DNA of 40,470 bases from NCBI GenBank assembly GCA_016213435.1, contig JACRAL010000093.1, positions 77,670 through 118,139 of the forward strand. The letters run 5' to 3'. Below are positions 10,039 through 39,861 of this stretch, piece after piece (within the stretch, counting starts at the first letter, position 1; every line of letters starts with the position of its first letter). Source of the stretch: Bacteroidota bacterium. Its GTDB lineage: Bacteria; Bacteroidota; Bacteroidia; Palsa-948. Both the position numbers and the translations under genes were made by a program. The notes beneath the pieces were generated by a model, which was not told the origin of the DNA, did no database searches, and saw nothing but the letters and a program-made list of their open reading frames with translations.

Positions 10039-10110
10039 CCACCCCAACCCCCGCCTTCCCCAAAGGGGAAGGAGCTTCTCCCCCTTTGGGGGAGACATGA
10101 GAGGGGGTGG
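10039..10110. repeat. Intergenic GC-rich palindromic element
   Basis: About 72 bases with an outer pair CCACCCC/GGGGGTGG and two inner hairpins, CTTCCCCAAAGGGGAAG and CTCCCCCTTTGGGGGAG. It is the same type as the element at 21640 and resembles the in-frame copies in the genes at 4345 and 12671. It lies between two same-strand genes, just downstream of the stop of the 399-aa gene. Confidence 0.75.
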
Positions 10111-11328: not shown

Positions 11329-11625
11329 TTAAAGGGTTAATTGATTATTGTTAATTGCGTTTATAAAGCGAACTATATTATAATCGTTTCGAGTTGCACT
11401 TGCCAAACGGCTAAGGGCATCCGAAGGGTTTCGGGTGGCACTTGCCAAACGTCTAAGGGCATCCGAAGGGTTTCGGGTGGCACTTGCCAAACGGCTAAGG
11501 ACATCCCTAAGGTTTCGGGTGGCGCTTGCCAAACGGCTAAGGACATCCCTAAGGTTTCGGGTGGCACTTGCCAAACGGCTAAGGGTATCAGTAAGTTTCC
11601 CAAGCAGGTTCCGAATGTTCGGCAA
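11329..11625 (-). CDS. Small 14-residue-repeat protein (hypothetical)
   Basis: Ninety-eight residues are made mainly of five copies of a 14-residue unit, LSRLASATRN followed by LRDV or PSDA, that would form amphipathic helix with basic and small residues. The frame continues a plausible N-terminus (LLPNIRNLLGKL) and ends 12 bases before the next gene, which favours it over the other open frames. The start is doubtful: the first candidate here is TTG at 11625. An ATG at 11651 lies in another frame (Trp/Pro-rich, less protein-like). No Shine-Dalgarno is evident. Function is unknown, and non-coding status is possible because the repeat leaves several frames open on both strands. Confidence 0.45.
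   Translation of the reverse strand: MPNIRNLLGKLTDTLSRLASATRNLRDVLSRLASATRNLRDVLSRLASATRNPSDALRRLASATRNPSDALSRLASATRNDYNIVRFINAINNNQLTL
11388..11592. repeat. Five 42-bp tandem repeats
   Basis: CTTGCCAAACG recurs at 11399, 11441, 11483, 11525 and 11567, exactly 42 bases apart, inside units that also share GGCTAAGG and GGTTTCGGGTGGC. Variation is confined to a few positions (e.g. GGGCATCCGAAGGG versus GGACATCCCTAAGG, each shared by neighbouring copies), which suggests recent unit duplication. Confidence 0.9.
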
Positions 11626-12577: not shown

Positions 12578-13366
12578 TTACTCACGGAAATATTTTAATG
12601 AAAGCTCCTTTCCATCAAATACAGCATAAGAGAAATGACTGATCCACTCGCCAAGATTAATGTAGCGTGAAGCCCCCTTTCCCTGAGCTACGCTCGCAAC
12701 CTTCGGTTGTCCCGAAGGGGGAAAAGCTCCATGAGAGGTGAGGTTCATATCAATCGGAAGATGTCTGTGCCCGAAAATAAAATAATCAAAATATTCTTTC
12801 TTAAGAATTTCTCTTGAGTGAATGACAAGCCATTCTTTCTCTCCATGAAAATGCAACTCTTCTGTGAGTTTGCGGCTCTTGCCTGACCAAAATTGCGCTA
12901 TGCCAATTCCAAGATTGGGATGAATGCGCGCAAACAACCACTGACACACTTTACTCGCAAAGACCGCTTTGATGAATTTGTAACCAAAATCTCCGGGACC
13001 TAATCCATCTCCATGCGCTAAATAAAATTTCTTTCCGTTTATTTCTCGTGTAATGGGGTTGCGGTAAATTTTCAGGTTAAGTTCTTGGGGCAGATAGTCG
13101 AACACCCACATGTCGTGATTGCCTGTGAAGTAATGAAGTTTTATTCCTGCATCACTTAACTCTGCCAATTTCCCAAGCAAACGAACATATCCTTTCGGCA
13201 CCGCTTTGCCGTATTCAAACCAAAAATCAAACACATCGCCCATCAAATAAATTTCAGATGCATCCTTCTTAATGGAATCCAGGAAAGCAACTACCTTCTT
13301 TTCACGAACCAAGCTACGTGCGTAATCAGGAGCGCCAAGGTGGAAATCTGAAAGAAAGTAAATCAT
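12578..13366 (-). CDS. lpxH: UDP-2,3-diacylglucosamine pyrophosphatase (LpxH-type)
   Basis: Calcineurin-like metallophosphoesterase of lipid A synthesis; it cleaves UDP-2,3-diacylglucosamine to lipid X and UMP at the inner face of the inner membrane. Metal-binding motifs are in order: DFH (Asp7, His9), GDVFD (from Gly43), GNHD (82-85), HGD (118-120) and GHRH (199-202). Length is 262. Residues 212-232 (HGAFPPSGQPKVASVAQGKG and one Ala) are not expected in the family: orthologs normally run from the GHRH strand almost directly to SRYINLGEW. This 63-base segment is an in-frame palindromic insertion. It lies on the periphery, after the last metal ligand, so activity may survive. Bacteroidota also use LpxH-like paralogs, so the exact substrate is inferred. 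Confidence 0.85.
   Translation of the reverse strand: MIYFLSDFHLGAPDYARSLVREKKVVAFLDSIKKDASEIYLMGDVFDFWFEYGKAVPKGYVRLLGKLAELSDAGIKLHYFTGNHDMWVFDYLPQELNLKIYRNPITREINGKKFYLAHGDGLGPGDFGYKFIKAVFASKVCQWLFARIHPNLGIGIAQFWSGKSRKLTEELHFHGEKEWLVIHSREILKKEYFDYFIFGHRHLPIDMNLTSHGAFPPSGQPKVASVAQGKGASRYINLGEWISHFSYAVFDGKELSLKYFRE
12671..12733. repeat. Palindromic element inserted in frame in lpxH
   Basis: Sixty-three bases (21 codons) run from AGCCCCCTTTCCC to GAAGGGGGAAAAGCTCCATG. The outer halves are inversely complementary, and inside are GAGC/GCTC and CAACC/GGTTG hairpins. The segment interrupts an otherwise normal LpxH reading frame without a stop or shift. Confidence 0.7.
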
Positions 13367-19941: not shown

Positions 19942-21471
19942 TTACGAATCCATTCTATGGCGTAACCTCGTCACCTCTGCAAAAGTTTTATTCTGGATTT
20001 TACTTTCCACCCAGCTCAGAAAGTCAAAGTTCTCCATTGCCGCTTTCTCCAACGGATTTTTTCTCAGTTGCACCAAAGTTGTTTTAAATGCTTTAAACGC
20101 AGCACTGCGTTCTTTTCTGCTAATGGGTTTGCCTATGATTTGACGCATGCAATGCATCAATGCCTTTTCTACTTTGAAGAAGAGTTGGCGTGTGGAGAGA
20201 AAATGCTGAGTGCTTCGTTTCAATGAATCCAGCATTTGCTCATCGTCCTTGTGCAATTCGTAGTGGATGAGAAGATAGAGCATGCGCGCGCCCGCTTGCG
20301 CATCCTCCCTGAGCGCACCTGCCGGCTGATCAATGGCTTTTCTGAGCCAGCGTAATGCTTCGGTATAGTTACCTGCGCCAAAAAGCAAATAGGCGATATT
20401 AGAATAGAGCATGATCCGTGTAAAAACAGGAGCTTGATTTACTATATCTTCACTTCCTTCTATGGCTTTCAAAACAGGATATACTCTTTCAAAATCACCC
20501 GCCATTACGTATGCATTCAATTCATTGACGTGAGAATATATCCATAATTCTTCCTTGAGCGAACTGGAAATATTCGGGTAGCTGCGAATTTTGTGCAACA
20601 CCTCCTGCATCTCGCTATATATATTTCGGTTATCAGGCAAAAGGTATCCCATAAAGATCACCGAGAGATTCAAGGCGGCCAGATGTTTCTTCTCCGGGTC
20701 TCTTAACTGATGGAAATATGTTTCTATAAATTCGCATTGCTCCTTTAATGTTTTATACCCTTTAATAATATCCCGCTTCAAAAGATAGTAACGAGACCAT
20801 ATATCATAATAATATGCTTTTGCTTCTGCGCAGGATGCCTGATTGGAATTGCGCAAAAGAGGGTGCTGCATCAGTTTTTCAATAAATGATTTCTCCCTTC
20901 TTGTGCGCATGAATTCCGCTTTCTGAAACCGCTGTATTATCTCAAGGTGTATTTTCCGGTAGTCTTTAATGCTGTTTATCTTTTTCAGCACGCTTTCCAT
21001 TTCTTCGTTCAGATGAGGTATCGTCAATATATCCAGTGTCGCGTAAGGAGTTCTTTCCATGACCAATATTTCCATCAGCATCTCCCATTGCTCATGCTGA
21101 TAGGCAATCCGCTTGGCTTCCTTTAACAGCTTCAATGCCTGCGCAGTCAGCCCTTTGCGCAAAAGGATTTCGACTTTTCTGAGCCGGCTGTGCAGGTTTA
21201 TATCCGCACTGCTGTGGTAATTTTCCAAACTCCGGAGAATATTAGTATGCAAATCTCTTTTAGCAACAGAAAGATGGCGCAAAAACTTTTGTCCGTGGCA
21301 GGCGCTGCGAATGGCATCCTCATTATAAGTATGTTGTTTTGCTGTTGCATCGTATAATTTCAGGTAGCTTTTATCTCCGCCCTTTAGGGAAGAAAACATT
21401 TTGAAATACTTCTTTTCAGCCATCGTGAGTGAATGGATCAACTCGAAAAGATCAGTTCCTGTCTTTTTCAT
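19942..21471 (-). CDS. Paralogous helical-repeat protein, copy 1 of 3
   Basis: I do not recognise a named family. The 509 residues are predicted almost fully helical and soluble, with TPR-like helix pairs (e.g. ALRWLRKAIDQPAGALREDAQAGARMLYL). The N-terminus MKKTGTDLFELIHSLTMAEK and the C-terminal stretch FDFLSWVESKIQNKTFAEV are shared almost unchanged with the genes at 31747 and 38270. No signal peptide, membrane helix or catalytic motif is seen. Such multi-copy proteins are known as uncharacterised families in Bacteroidota. A scaffold or regulatory role is a guess from the fold. Its upstream region shares two motifs at fixed distances with that of copy 3. Confidence 0.8.
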   Translation of the reverse strand: MKKTGTDLFELIHSLTMAEKKYFKMFSSLKGGDKSYLKLYDATAKQHTYNEDAIRSACHGQKFLRHLSVAKRDLHTNILRSLENYHSSADINLHSRLRKVEILLRKGLTAQALKLLKEAKRIAYQHEQWEMLMEILVMERTPYATLDILTIPHLNEEMESVLKKINSIKDYRKIHLEIIQRFQKAEFMRTRREKSFIEKLMQHPLLRNSNQASCAEAKAYYYDIWSRYYLLKRDIIKGYKTLKEQCEFIETYFHQLRDPEKKHLAALNLSVIFMGYLLPDNRNIYSEMQEVLHKIRSYPNISSSLKEELWIYSHVNELNAYVMAGDFERVYPVLKAIEGSEDIVNQAPVFTRIMLYSNIAYLLFGAGNYTEALRWLRKAIDQPAGALREDAQAGARMLYLLIHYELHKDDEQMLDSLKRSTQHFLSTRQLFFKVEKALMHCMRQIIGKPISRKERSAAFKAFKTTLVQLRKNPLEKAAMENFDFLSWVESKIQNKTFAEVTRLRHRMDS

Positions 21472-31704: not shown

Positions 31705-31767
31705 AAAAATAATTACAACCAACTTCTTTCCATAATGATTCGCAGATCAATTGGTGTAATTATTTTT
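31705..31767. terminator. Possible bidirectional terminator between convergent genes
   Basis: AAAAATAATTACA...CC (31705-31720) pairs with GGTGTAATTATTTTT (31753-31767) over about 13 bases plus CC/GG, with an AT-rich stem and a 32-base loop. It overlaps the last codons of the minus-strand paralog. Confidence 0.4.
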
Positions 31768-33285
31768 CTTTGCAATACGTTTCACTTTCTTTCTCACTAT
31801 CTCCGCAAAAGTTTTATTCTGAATTTTGCTCTCCACCCAACTCAGAAAGTCAAAGTCTTCCATCGCGATTTTCTCTATCGGATTTTTCCTTAATTTCAGC
31901 AAGGTTGTTTTAAATTCCTGAAAAGCAGTACTGCGTTCTTTTTTACTGATTGCCTTTCCCATAATTTGATGAAGGCAATGCATCAATGCCTCTTCCACTT
32001 TGAAAAGGCGGTGGCGTGTGGAAAGGAAATGCAGGGTGCTTCGTTTCAATGAATTCAGCAATTGTTCATCCTTGTGCAACTCGTAGTGAGTAAGCAGAGA
32101 AAGAAGGCGTGCACTTGCTTGTACATCCTGCCGGAATATACCCGCGGACCAATCAATGATTTGGAGCCAACGTAATGCTTCGTTATATCTGTCTGCGCCA
32201 AAATTCATGTAAGCGATATTGTAATAGATACTATTTCTTAAACTACTAGGCATCTGGCTCAACAGGTCTTGATTTTCTTCTATCGCTTTTATAACCGGAA
32301 TTACTTTTTCAAAATCCCCAATCTGCATAAGCGCATTTAATTCATTCACATAGGAAGCAACCCAAAATGTGACTAATGCATTGGTAATAGGGGGATAAGA
32401 GCGGAGTTTCTTCAACACCTCTTGCATCTCTCCATACAGACTACGTTTGAAAGGTAAAAGATACCCAATAAAGATTACTATACTATTTAACGCGAAAAGA
32501 TGTCTTTTCCCCGGATCTTTTAACTGATGAAAATGTGTTTTTATAAATTCGCAATGTTCTTTTGATGTATGGTATCCTTTAATAGCGTCCCGCTTAAAGC
32601 GATAATATTGAGACCATATTTCATAATAATATGTTTTTGCCTCTGCGCATAATGCCTGTTTGGAATTGCGCAAAAGAGGATGCCGCATCAGTTTTGAAAC
32701 AAGCAATAATTCCTTTTTTGTGCGCAGGGGTCCCGCTTTGTAAACCATGCGGGTTATTTCATGGTGTATTGTTTGATACTCATGAACATTGCTTAATTTT
32801 TCCAACACGGCTTTTTTTTCTTGGTTCAGATGAGACATATCCCTCAATTCTGCCACGTAAAGAATTCTTTCCATATCTAATAATTCTATCAATAACCCCC
32901 ATTTCTCATGCTGATAGGATAGGGGCTTGGCTGTCTTTAATAGTTTCAGCGCCTGATCGGAAAGCCCTTTGCGTAAAAGAATTTCGGATTTGTTAAGCTG
33001 ACTGCGCAGATTTATATCCGCACTGGTGTGGTAATTTTCCAAACTCCGAAGAATATTAGCATGAAGACGTCTTTTAGCAACGGAAATATGCCTCAAGAAA
33101 TTTTGTCCGCGGCATGTCGCATGAATGGCTTCCTCATTATATGATCCTTGTTTCTCTATCGCATCATACAATCTTAAATAGCTCTTATCTCCCCCTTTAA
33201 ATGAGGAAAACATTTTGAAATACTTCTTTTCCGCCATAGTGAGTGAATGGATCAACTCAAAAAGCGCAGTACTTGTCTTTTTCAT
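31747..33285 (-). CDS. Paralogous helical-repeat protein, copy 2 of 3
   Basis: The ATG at 33285 was chosen because it gives MKKTSTALFELIHSLTMAEK, matching the other two copies; the frame runs on upstream with no conserved residues. It has 512 residues, largely helical. The LRSLENYH, EILLRKGLSDQALKLLK and FDFLSWVESKIQNKTFAE blocks are conserved with copies 1 and 3, while the middle (residues ~160-400) diverges. No signal peptide. It faces away from the adhesin at 33578 and towards the one at 29353. Function is unknown, as for the other copies. Confidence 0.8.
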   Translation of the reverse strand: MKKTSTALFELIHSLTMAEKKYFKMFSSFKGGDKSYLRLYDAIEKQGSYNEEAIHATCRGQNFLRHISVAKRRLHANILRSLENYHTSADINLRSQLNKSEILLRKGLSDQALKLLKTAKPLSYQHEKWGLLIELLDMERILYVAELRDMSHLNQEKKAVLEKLSNVHEYQTIHHEITRMVYKAGPLRTKKELLLVSKLMRHPLLRNSKQALCAEAKTYYYEIWSQYYRFKRDAIKGYHTSKEHCEFIKTHFHQLKDPGKRHLFALNSIVIFIGYLLPFKRSLYGEMQEVLKKLRSYPPITNALVTFWVASYVNELNALMQIGDFEKVIPVIKAIEENQDLLSQMPSSLRNSIYYNIAYMNFGADRYNEALRWLQIIDWSAGIFRQDVQASARLLSLLTHYELHKDEQLLNSLKRSTLHFLSTRHRLFKVEEALMHCLHQIMGKAISKKERSTAFQEFKTTLLKLRKNPIEKIAMEDFDFLSWVESKIQNKTFAEIVRKKVKRIAKKNNYTN

Positions 33286-33325
33286 ACCTGTCAAATTATA
33301 GAAGTGAAAAATACACATAATCCTG

Positions 33326-33347
33326 CTTATACATAGCAAAAAGAAAA
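33326..33347 (-). promoter_or_regulatory. Conserved upstream motif of paralog copy 2
   Basis: CTTATACATAGCAAAAAG on the plus strand, 41 bases from the start, corresponds to the motif of copies 1 and 3. The 29-bp element is not found at the matching place. Confidence 0.45.
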
Positions 33348-33433
33348 CTCGATCGAATAAGAATGACTCATCACACATGTTAAATAAGAATATAAGTTAT
33401 TCGTAATTTTTAAAAAAATCCTCCTTTTATCCT

Positions 33434-38269: not shown

Positions 38270-39820
38270 TCACTTCGCCTTCTCCCTCACCACCTCCGCA
38301 AAAGTTTTATTCTGAATCTTGCTTTCCACCCAGCTTAGAAAGTCAAACTCATCTATCGCTGCTTTCTCCATCGGGTTTTTCATCAGTTTCAGCAAAGTTG
38401 TTTTTAATTCTTGGAAAGCAAGAGTACGTTCTTTTCTGCTGACTGGCTTGCCCATGATTTGACGCAGGCAATGCATCAATGCTTTTTCTACTTTGAAAAT
38501 GCGATGGCGAGTGGATAGGAAATGCCTAGTTCTGCGCTCCAATGAATCCAGCATTTGTTCATCCTTGTGCAACTCATAATTGATAAGCAGATAGAGAATG
38601 TGTGCCAGTGCCTGTGTATCCTTTCGGAGTTCAATAGGATGATCGATGATTTTTATGATCCAGCGTAATGCTTCGTTATAACTCCCTGCTCCAAAAAGCA
38701 TATAGGCGATATTGTAATAGAGATTGTTTTTTGTAACAGAAGCAGCTTGGTTTAGAAGGATATGGTTTTCGTCTATCGCTTTCAAAGCCGGGAATACTTT
38801 TTCAAAGGCACCCTCCATCCGATACCCATTCAATTCATTTATGTAGGAATGTGTCCAGTATTCTGCCTTGAGCAAACTGGGAATAATCGGATAACTGCGA
38901 ATTTTCTGCAACACATCTTCCCTTTCGCCATATTTACCCGATCGAATATCGATTTTCTGCTTTTTATCGAAGTGACGTTTGGCAGATAAAAGATGTCCCA
39001 TGAAGATTGTTGAAATGTTCAATGCGAAAAGATGTTTCTTTTCCGGGTCTTTTAACTGATGGAAGTGTGTTTCTAGAAAATCACATTGTTCCTTTGCTGT
39101 TTCGAGCCCTTTAATAAAATCCCGTTTAAAGAAATAGCAAAGAGACCATATTTCATAATAATATGCCTTTGCTTCCGTGCAGGATGCCTGCTTTGAATTT
39201 CGTAAAAGAGGATGCTGCATTAACTTTTCGATACGGGATAGCTCTTTCTTGGTACGCATAGGACCTGCTTCCTGAATCCTCTGTATCATCTTATGGTGTA
39301 TTGCTTGGTAGTCATTAATGTTGCTTAGTTTTTGCAACACGGCTTTGCTTTCTTCGTTCAGACGAGGTATTTTCAATGTATCCAGTGTCGCGTAAGGAAT
39401 TCTTTCCATGTCTAATATTTCCATCAGCAATTCCCATTGCTCATGCTGATAGGCAATTGCTTTGGTTGTCTTTAATAGCTTCAGCGCATGCGCAGTAAGC
39501 CCTTTACGTAAAAGAATTCCGGCTTTGCGGAGCTGGCTGTGCAGGTTGACATCCGCACCGCTGTGGTAATTTTCCAAACTGCGGAGAATATTATTATAAA
39601 GACGGTTCTTTGTAGCAAAAAGCTGCCGCAAAAACTTTTGTCCGCTATATGCTGTGCGAATGGCATCCTCATTATAGCGGTGTTGTTTTTCCATTGCATC
39701 ATATAATTTCAGATAGTTTTTATCTCCGCCTTTCATGGATGAAAACATCTTGAAATACTTTTTTTCAGCCATGGTGAGCGAATGGATTAACTCGAAAAGC
39801 TCAATACTTGTCTTTTTCAT
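38270..39820 (-). CDS. Paralogous helical-repeat protein, copy 3 of 3
   Basis: It has 516 residues from the Met at 39820, which matches the MKKT start of the other copies; a Met two codons earlier is possible. It is helical throughout, with no signal or membrane segment. It shares SLTMAEKKYFKMFSS, GGDKNYLKLYDAMEKQ, LRSLENYH, LLRKGLTAHALKLLK, YYNIAYMLFGAGSYNEALRW and FDFLSWVESKIQNKTFAEVV with the other two copies. The middle carries an insertion (about ten residues near KKQKIDIRSGKYGE) relative to copy 1. The conserved 29-bp element lies 126 bases upstream of the start. Function is unknown. Confidence 0.8.
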   Translation of the reverse strand: MKKTSIELFELIHSLTMAEKKYFKMFSSMKGGDKNYLKLYDAMEKQHRYNEDAIRTAYSGQKFLRQLFATKNRLYNNILRSLENYHSGADVNLHSQLRKAGILLRKGLTAHALKLLKTTKAIAYQHEQWELLMEILDMERIPYATLDTLKIPRLNEESKAVLQKLSNINDYQAIHHKMIQRIQEAGPMRTKKELSRIEKLMQHPLLRNSKQASCTEAKAYYYEIWSLCYFFKRDFIKGLETAKEQCDFLETHFHQLKDPEKKHLFALNISTIFMGHLLSAKRHFDKKQKIDIRSGKYGEREDVLQKIRSYPIIPSLLKAEYWTHSYINELNGYRMEGAFEKVFPALKAIDENHILLNQAASVTKNNLYYNIAYMLFGAGSYNEALRWIIKIIDHPIELRKDTQALAHILYLLINYELHKDEQMLDSLERRTRHFLSTRHRIFKVEKALMHCLRQIMGKPVSRKERTLAFQELKTTLLKLMKNPMEKAAIDEFDFLSWVESKIQNKTFAEVVREKAK

Positions 39821-39861
39821 AACCATATTGATTATTGATCATAAAGATAGACATAATACGG

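Follow-up and report, generated by a model that had tools for sequence, protein, structure and literature searches.

Results

An in-frame insert in an LpxH-like metallophosphoesterase gene

The window, by which we mean the whole 40,470-nt stretch of DNA that was analysed, encodes on its minus strand a 262-residue LpxH-like metallophosphoesterase (12578..13366), the host of the insert described here. The original prediction took this gene to be the essential lipid A gene lpxH. LpxH structures are the nearest solved structures in the PDB, yet the protein falls short of the curated cut-offs for LpxH (TIGR01854 and NF003743); the name LpxH is used here at the family level only, and the gene, because of that score, is no more than presumably essential. 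Elsewhere in the window, a tandem array of a 42-nt unit (4.9 copies) lies between two genes at 11386-11589, and three paralogous minus-strand ORFs (19942-21471, 31747-33378 and 38270-39826) have DNA that is ~76-82% alike over long blocks.

Alignment with orthologues places the inserted segment at residues 210-232 (TSHGAFPPSGQPKVASVAQGKGA; 12671..12739, minus strand), where 69 nt (23 residues) stand in place of the 9 nt of the orthologues, a net in-frame gain of 60 nt or 20 residues. The same-genus orthologues from genomes G001, G005 and G006 read ..L-SENS/SEKS-RYINLGEW.. (or QYINLGEW) and more distant relatives also have SEN/SEK at this site, while the window's protein reads ..L-TSHGAFPPSGQPKVASVAQGKGA-S-RYINLGEW, with SHGAFPPSGQPK forming part of the insert-spanning peptide region. 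The insert had been predicted as a 63-base, 21-residue addition that would face an orthologue gap at residues 212-232, which is right to within 1-2 residues: the gap is present in these three orthologues and in all outgroups inspected, so the insert is not a feature of all orthologues. The reading frame runs through the whole insert, and its net length is a multiple of three. Although it had been called a palindromic segment, it is palindromic only in part, with two perfect mini-hairpins, which are repeated genome-wide, set within imperfect GC-rich arms. Folded as a 96-nt RNA, the insert is only modestly better than shuffled sequence (z -1.7), and it has no Rfam match over the gathering score.

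The host protein appears to tolerate this addition, as had been expected. Its metal motifs are intact, and comparison of the gene with that of G001 gives a dN of 0.046 and a dS of 1.53 (dN/dS ~0.03), which indicates strong purifying selection. In the AlphaFold2 model of the insert-bearing protein (mean pLDDT 78), residues 213-230 have pLDDT values <50 and lie between the strands at 204-208 and 234-238, and the insert is thus predicted to form a disordered, floppy turn. That the insert arose through faulty assembly or binning, or that the gene is decaying, is extremely improbable. The genomes are apparently metagenome-assembled, but the repeat family described below is found in seven separate genomes, and the frame of the LpxH-like gene is intact, under purifying selection and without a second copy: this is the only homologue found in the window's genome, which is 97% complete, so it is not a paralogue decaying beside an intact lpxH.

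A conserved 26-nt twin-hairpin core

Within the insert lies a 26-nt twin-hairpin core, ACAACCGAAGGTTGCGAGCGTAGCTC (12685..12710, minus strand; family consensus ACAACCGNAGGTTGSGAGCGNAGCTC), which is delineated by BLAST, a covariance model and covariation. It consists of mini-hairpin A (CAACC-GAA-GGTTG; 12697..12709) and mini-hairpin B (GAGC-GTA-GCTC; 12685..12695), both on the minus strand and both with a covarying stem and a GNA triloop. Across 81 distinct rows, 97.8% of cells are paired, and changes on both sides occur at eight of the nine pairs; none of 500 shuffles did as well and slides were also far off. The alignment was fitted to the model, though the double changes are nonetheless plain in ungapped copies. 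Stem A varies between CAACC/GGTTG and CAAGC/GCTTG, and stem B among GAGC/GCTC, GACC/GGTC, GAAC/GTTC and GCGC/GCGC. Loop B is GNA in 70 of the 81 rows (GAA 27, GTA 25, GCA 14 and GGA 4), and all four bases occur at the N of the GNA loops. C(GNA)G closure of the loop typifies the exceptionally stable DNA mini-hairpins of the GCGAAGC type and suggests that the core folds as single-stranded DNA. In the outer arms, the left and right flanks of core copies pair no better than permuted flanks. A covarying three-way junction was dropped on these grounds, and structural constraint is therefore demonstrated for the 26-nt core only.

Distribution of the core family

A BLAST search with the LpxH insert gave 41 matches in the window's genome, and the covariance model identified 58 core copies there and 86 in six congeners (51, 15, 15, 2, 2 and 1). 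Among 395 genomes of the class searched at E<=1e-4, with 19 candidates per genome scored among the matches listed, the core is present in all 7 genomes of the genus and in none of the 388 others. Within this class sample, the family is restricted to one genus of Bacteroidota. A phage or plasmid origin was rejected, since the core has no match in viral contigs or plasmids. At four loci (L002, L006, L009 and L014), core copies lie within a MITE-like unit with inverted ends GGACTTACGCA and TGCGTAAGTCC.

Placed in context, 100 distinct core copies comprise 36 well within ORFs at least 180 codons long, 36 intergenic, 20 near N-termini, 7 ambiguous and 1 C-terminal, fractions that rest on sampled genome stretches. 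Several of the 20 N-terminal copies lie over predicted signal peptides, where the choice of start is uncertain; in L018, L183, L016, L007 and L020, the core overlaps apparent signal peptides, to which it would contribute basic residues and a portion of the hydrophobic segment. In 388 kb of the window's genome, 23 of 51 GC hairpins fall within ORFs.

Hosts confirmed by curated models are MurG, YidC, RecJ, UvrA, polyprenyl synthase, RibE, PolA, Der and a UvrD/PcrA-type helicase, of which several exceed their cut-offs; an IscS-type cysteine desulfurase scores below its cut-off. Pfam domains add Lnt, NIF3, FAH, PALP and SpoIIE. In-frame gaps are found in the orthologues of UvrA, Der, a PLP enzyme, FAH, RibE, MurG, RecJ, PPS, IscS and Lnt, and for the first eight of these the gap is clean in orthologues from the genus. 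For YidC, PolA and UvrD, the insert falls in a variable linker. Core genes for lipid A, the cell wall, DNA repair and protein secretion thus carry in-frame palindromes, from which their proteins would, judging by the sequences, acquire an extra floppy loop. In G003, an ORF with NuoN-like sequence (L212) holds two core copies and a permease-like ORF (L210) holds two in opposite orientations. These observations bear out the expectation that the LpxH insert is a palindromic, mobile-type element in frame, and place it in a family whose copies occur across the genome and enter genes in frame.

The element is not evidently adapted to translation

A further proposal, that the element is adapted to be translated, found no support. 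Internal copies are read in sense frames 0, 1 and 2 (7, 5 and 11 copies, respectively) and in antisense frames 0 and 2 (11 and 2), so that five of the six frames are used. The LpxH 63-mer itself has stops in two of its six frames. Openness of all six frames was ruled out as a sign of adaptation, given that, in simulation, 60% of random twin hairpins built to this design lacked stops in every one of the six, and a stop-codon test on the loop base was dropped as circular, since copies had been classed by their open frame. In addition, ~36% of core copies are intergenic compared with ~13% of the sequence lying outside long ORFs. Because intergenic copies are over-represented in this way, those in genes look like survivors of a filter. 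The simplest reading needs only arrival in many places and the persistence of in-frame hits where a loop tolerates them.

The core is nested in older GC palindromes

Several kinds of GC palindrome harbour the core in their apical region. In the LpxH-like gene, it is nested inside a palindrome that we term type C, represented on the minus strand by a 5' arm, loop and first Gs (TTTTCCCCC-TTC-GGG; 12711..12733) and by a 3' remnant (AGGGAAAGGGGGCT; 12671..12684). The lpxH of G003 has the module-free form, TTTTCCCCCTTCGGG-GGAAAC-GGGAAAGGGGG (..CGGG-GGAAAC-..), and that of the window has TTTTCCCCCTTCGGG-(27 nt)-GGGAAAGGGGG (..CGGG-27 nt-..). A second background, type A, shows the same relationship: its core-free form is AAGTCCTCCCCCATGG-GGAGG-ATTTAGGAGGGGC and its core-bearing form is AAGTCCTCCCCAACGG-(26 nt)-ATTTAGGAGGGGC, which from the base reads AAGTCCTCCC..GG-GGAGG-ATTTAGG and ..GG-26 nt-ATTTAGG, respectively. 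In these two directly compared backgrounds, the core replaces 5-6 nt just 3' of the palindrome loop, for a net change of +21 in both. In type B palindromes (CCCCTCTCC..GGAGAGGGG), a core with an 11-nt longer loop is found in Der, IscS, RibE, RecJ and PPS. The LpxH insert is therefore nested, a 26-nt core within an older GC palindrome, an architecture that the original prediction missed.

Palindromes that lack the core are more widespread than the core and patchy outside the genus. Perfect type B hairpins number 97 in the window's genome, 9-90 in congeners and 0-35 outside the genus, and type A hairpins 37, 1-53 and 0-13, respectively; a reversed-pattern control gave essentially 0 for both. The window also contains a related module-free pair of GC palindromes between two genes (CCTTCCCC-AAA-GGGGAAGG and TCTCCCCC-TTT-GGGGGAGA; 10039..10110, no strand assigned).

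The junctions bear on how such elements spread. The core and the GC palindromes could move without a dedicated enzyme if hairpins exchanged sequence by template switching or gene conversion while DNA is replicated or repaired. Such exchange would explain why 5-6 nt of the hairpin 3' arm are replaced and the insertion is not a clean one, and why elements of one type keep shared arms. Near-identical cores nevertheless occur in arms that differ greatly, and the 3' junction offers little homology that could guide conversion; we regard this route as rather unlikely.

Different inserts recur at the same sites

A GC-rich palindrome occupies the same turn of the LpxH-like protein in several species, with the apical 26-nt core in the window's genome. 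The LpxH site is filled in the window's genome, G002, G003 and G004, as is the IscS site, and the Lnt, RecJ, PPS and NIF3 sites are also filled in more than one species. This recurrence of different inserts in relatives had gone unnoticed in the original prediction. A concatenated tree groups the window's genome with G001, G002 with G003, and G004 with G005 and G006, the last grouping weakly supported. G001, the sister of the window's genome, is empty or has only non-palindromic sequence at all 14 sites examined; it ranks lowest or close to lowest in palindrome number for every class and is the poorest in types A and B. At least three changes are needed on the tree for the LpxH site, and inserts recur at the same sites across species more than the tree predicts. 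Given that the window's genome, G002 and G003 share the same palindrome architecture at LpxH, the pattern there may reflect either descent, followed by loss or allele replacement in G001, or repeated gain.

Filling of the same loops in several species could also mean that the inserts are functional, either as selected extra loops or as mRNA hairpins that regulate their host genes. We consider this very unlikely, as inserts at one site differ between species in sequence, type, orientation and frame, sister species lack the inserts, and the frames are mixed.

Discussion

Our analysis indicates, with a probability that we put at roughly 85%, that the LpxH insert is a single copy from a genus-specific family of small palindromic repeats, mobile yet non-autonomous, that behaves like the protein-coding palindromes of Rickettsia. 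We infer mobility because copies are dispersed and orthologous sites in other species are empty. The core would spread as DNA, folding on a single-stranded (e.g. lagging-strand) template into two C(GNA)G hairpins, and a hairpin-recognising enzyme might act on the folded core in trans. It would then land beside the loop of existing GC hairpins, and genic copies would persist as in-frame hits in tolerant loops, translation being no evolved function of the element.

A tentative candidate for the mover is a Y1 (HUH) transposase of the IS200/IS605-like or RAYT type, acting in trans through recognition of single-stranded DNA hairpins. Y1_Tnp matches number 5 in the window's genome, 0 in G001, which is also palindrome-poor, and 3-8 in the others of the genus. 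Y1 count correlates weakly with palindrome number (rank correlation 0.67-0.76, exact one-sided p 0.03-0.06, n=7), but the seven genomes, being related, are not independent data points, and for one class genome size correlates as well. Of the 23 Y1 loci examined, only one, a G003 gene with CAACC/GGTTG hairpins, has a core copy ~80 nt downstream, which is suggestive only. The hairpins that flank the Y1 genes are particular to each gene and none matches the core, so that no transposase could be tied to it; the core also lacks the GTAG/CGTC tag.

A bolder proposal is that the 26-nt twin C(GNA)G hairpin constitutes a hitherto undescribed single-stranded DNA mobile unit, nested in palindrome loops and in essential proteins, and gained and precisely lost at the same codon. 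We hold this to be doubtful; if true, essential genes in a single bacterial genus switch back and forth between occupied and empty states.

Comparison with known systems clarifies what is distinctive about the family. A MITE of a DDE transposon would bring terminal inverted repeats and a target site duplication, and neither is evident at the insert junctions. The intragenic GTAG/CGTC REPs (PMC3733652) resemble the core in that they are short palindromes also found in genes, with listed hosts including UvrA, UvrD and PolA, and sometimes occupy the same site in related species. The core, however, has no terminal GTAG or CGTC, and the GTAG that some copies contain is confined to the loop and its closing base. 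In addition, about one third of core copies lie well inside genes, whereas REPs are mostly extragenic (PMC3733652), and core copies beside a RAYT or other Y1 gene amount to the one G003 case noted above. REPIN/BIME doublets (PMC3116915, PMC8266576) are similarly hairpin doublets and probably non-autonomous, and RAYT-like genes are present in the same genomes; unlike in those systems, the RAYT-like genes of this genus are flanked by hairpins other than the core. Those at L207, L208, L307 and L308 carry twin hairpins of their own (GTAAGCNNNGCTTAC and ACCCACGAAGGnnnCCTTCGCGGGTA). Insertion sequences that target REPs (PMC1525189) offer a parallel for one element nested in another's palindrome, although the core is only 26 nt long and has no gene of its own.

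The Rickettsia palindromic elements (RPEs; Ogata et al. 2000, 2002; described in PMC10969869) are likened here by description. Like the core family, they are dispersed palindromic repeats that lie in frame in unrelated protein genes, including housekeeping genes, and are absent from orthologues; they are also translated, as the in-frame core copies would be. RPEs are ~150 nt long, are found in Rickettsiales and encode one conserved peptide (PMC10969869), whereas the core family uses five of six frames and belongs to a Bacteroidota genus, with a conserved 26-nt twin hairpin, GNA triloops and nesting in GC palindromes. The literature searched yielded no paper on comparable elements inside Bacteroidota genes. 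Protein-coding palindromes are known chiefly from Rickettsia, and REPs elsewhere lie mostly outside genes. The Bacteroidota genus described here carries dozens of palindromes within core genes, with both filled and empty orthologues across seven related genomes, two levels of nesting and a conserved secondary structure. It thus offers a system in which to test the means by which such elements move and the frequency with which selfish DNA adds loops to essential enzymes.
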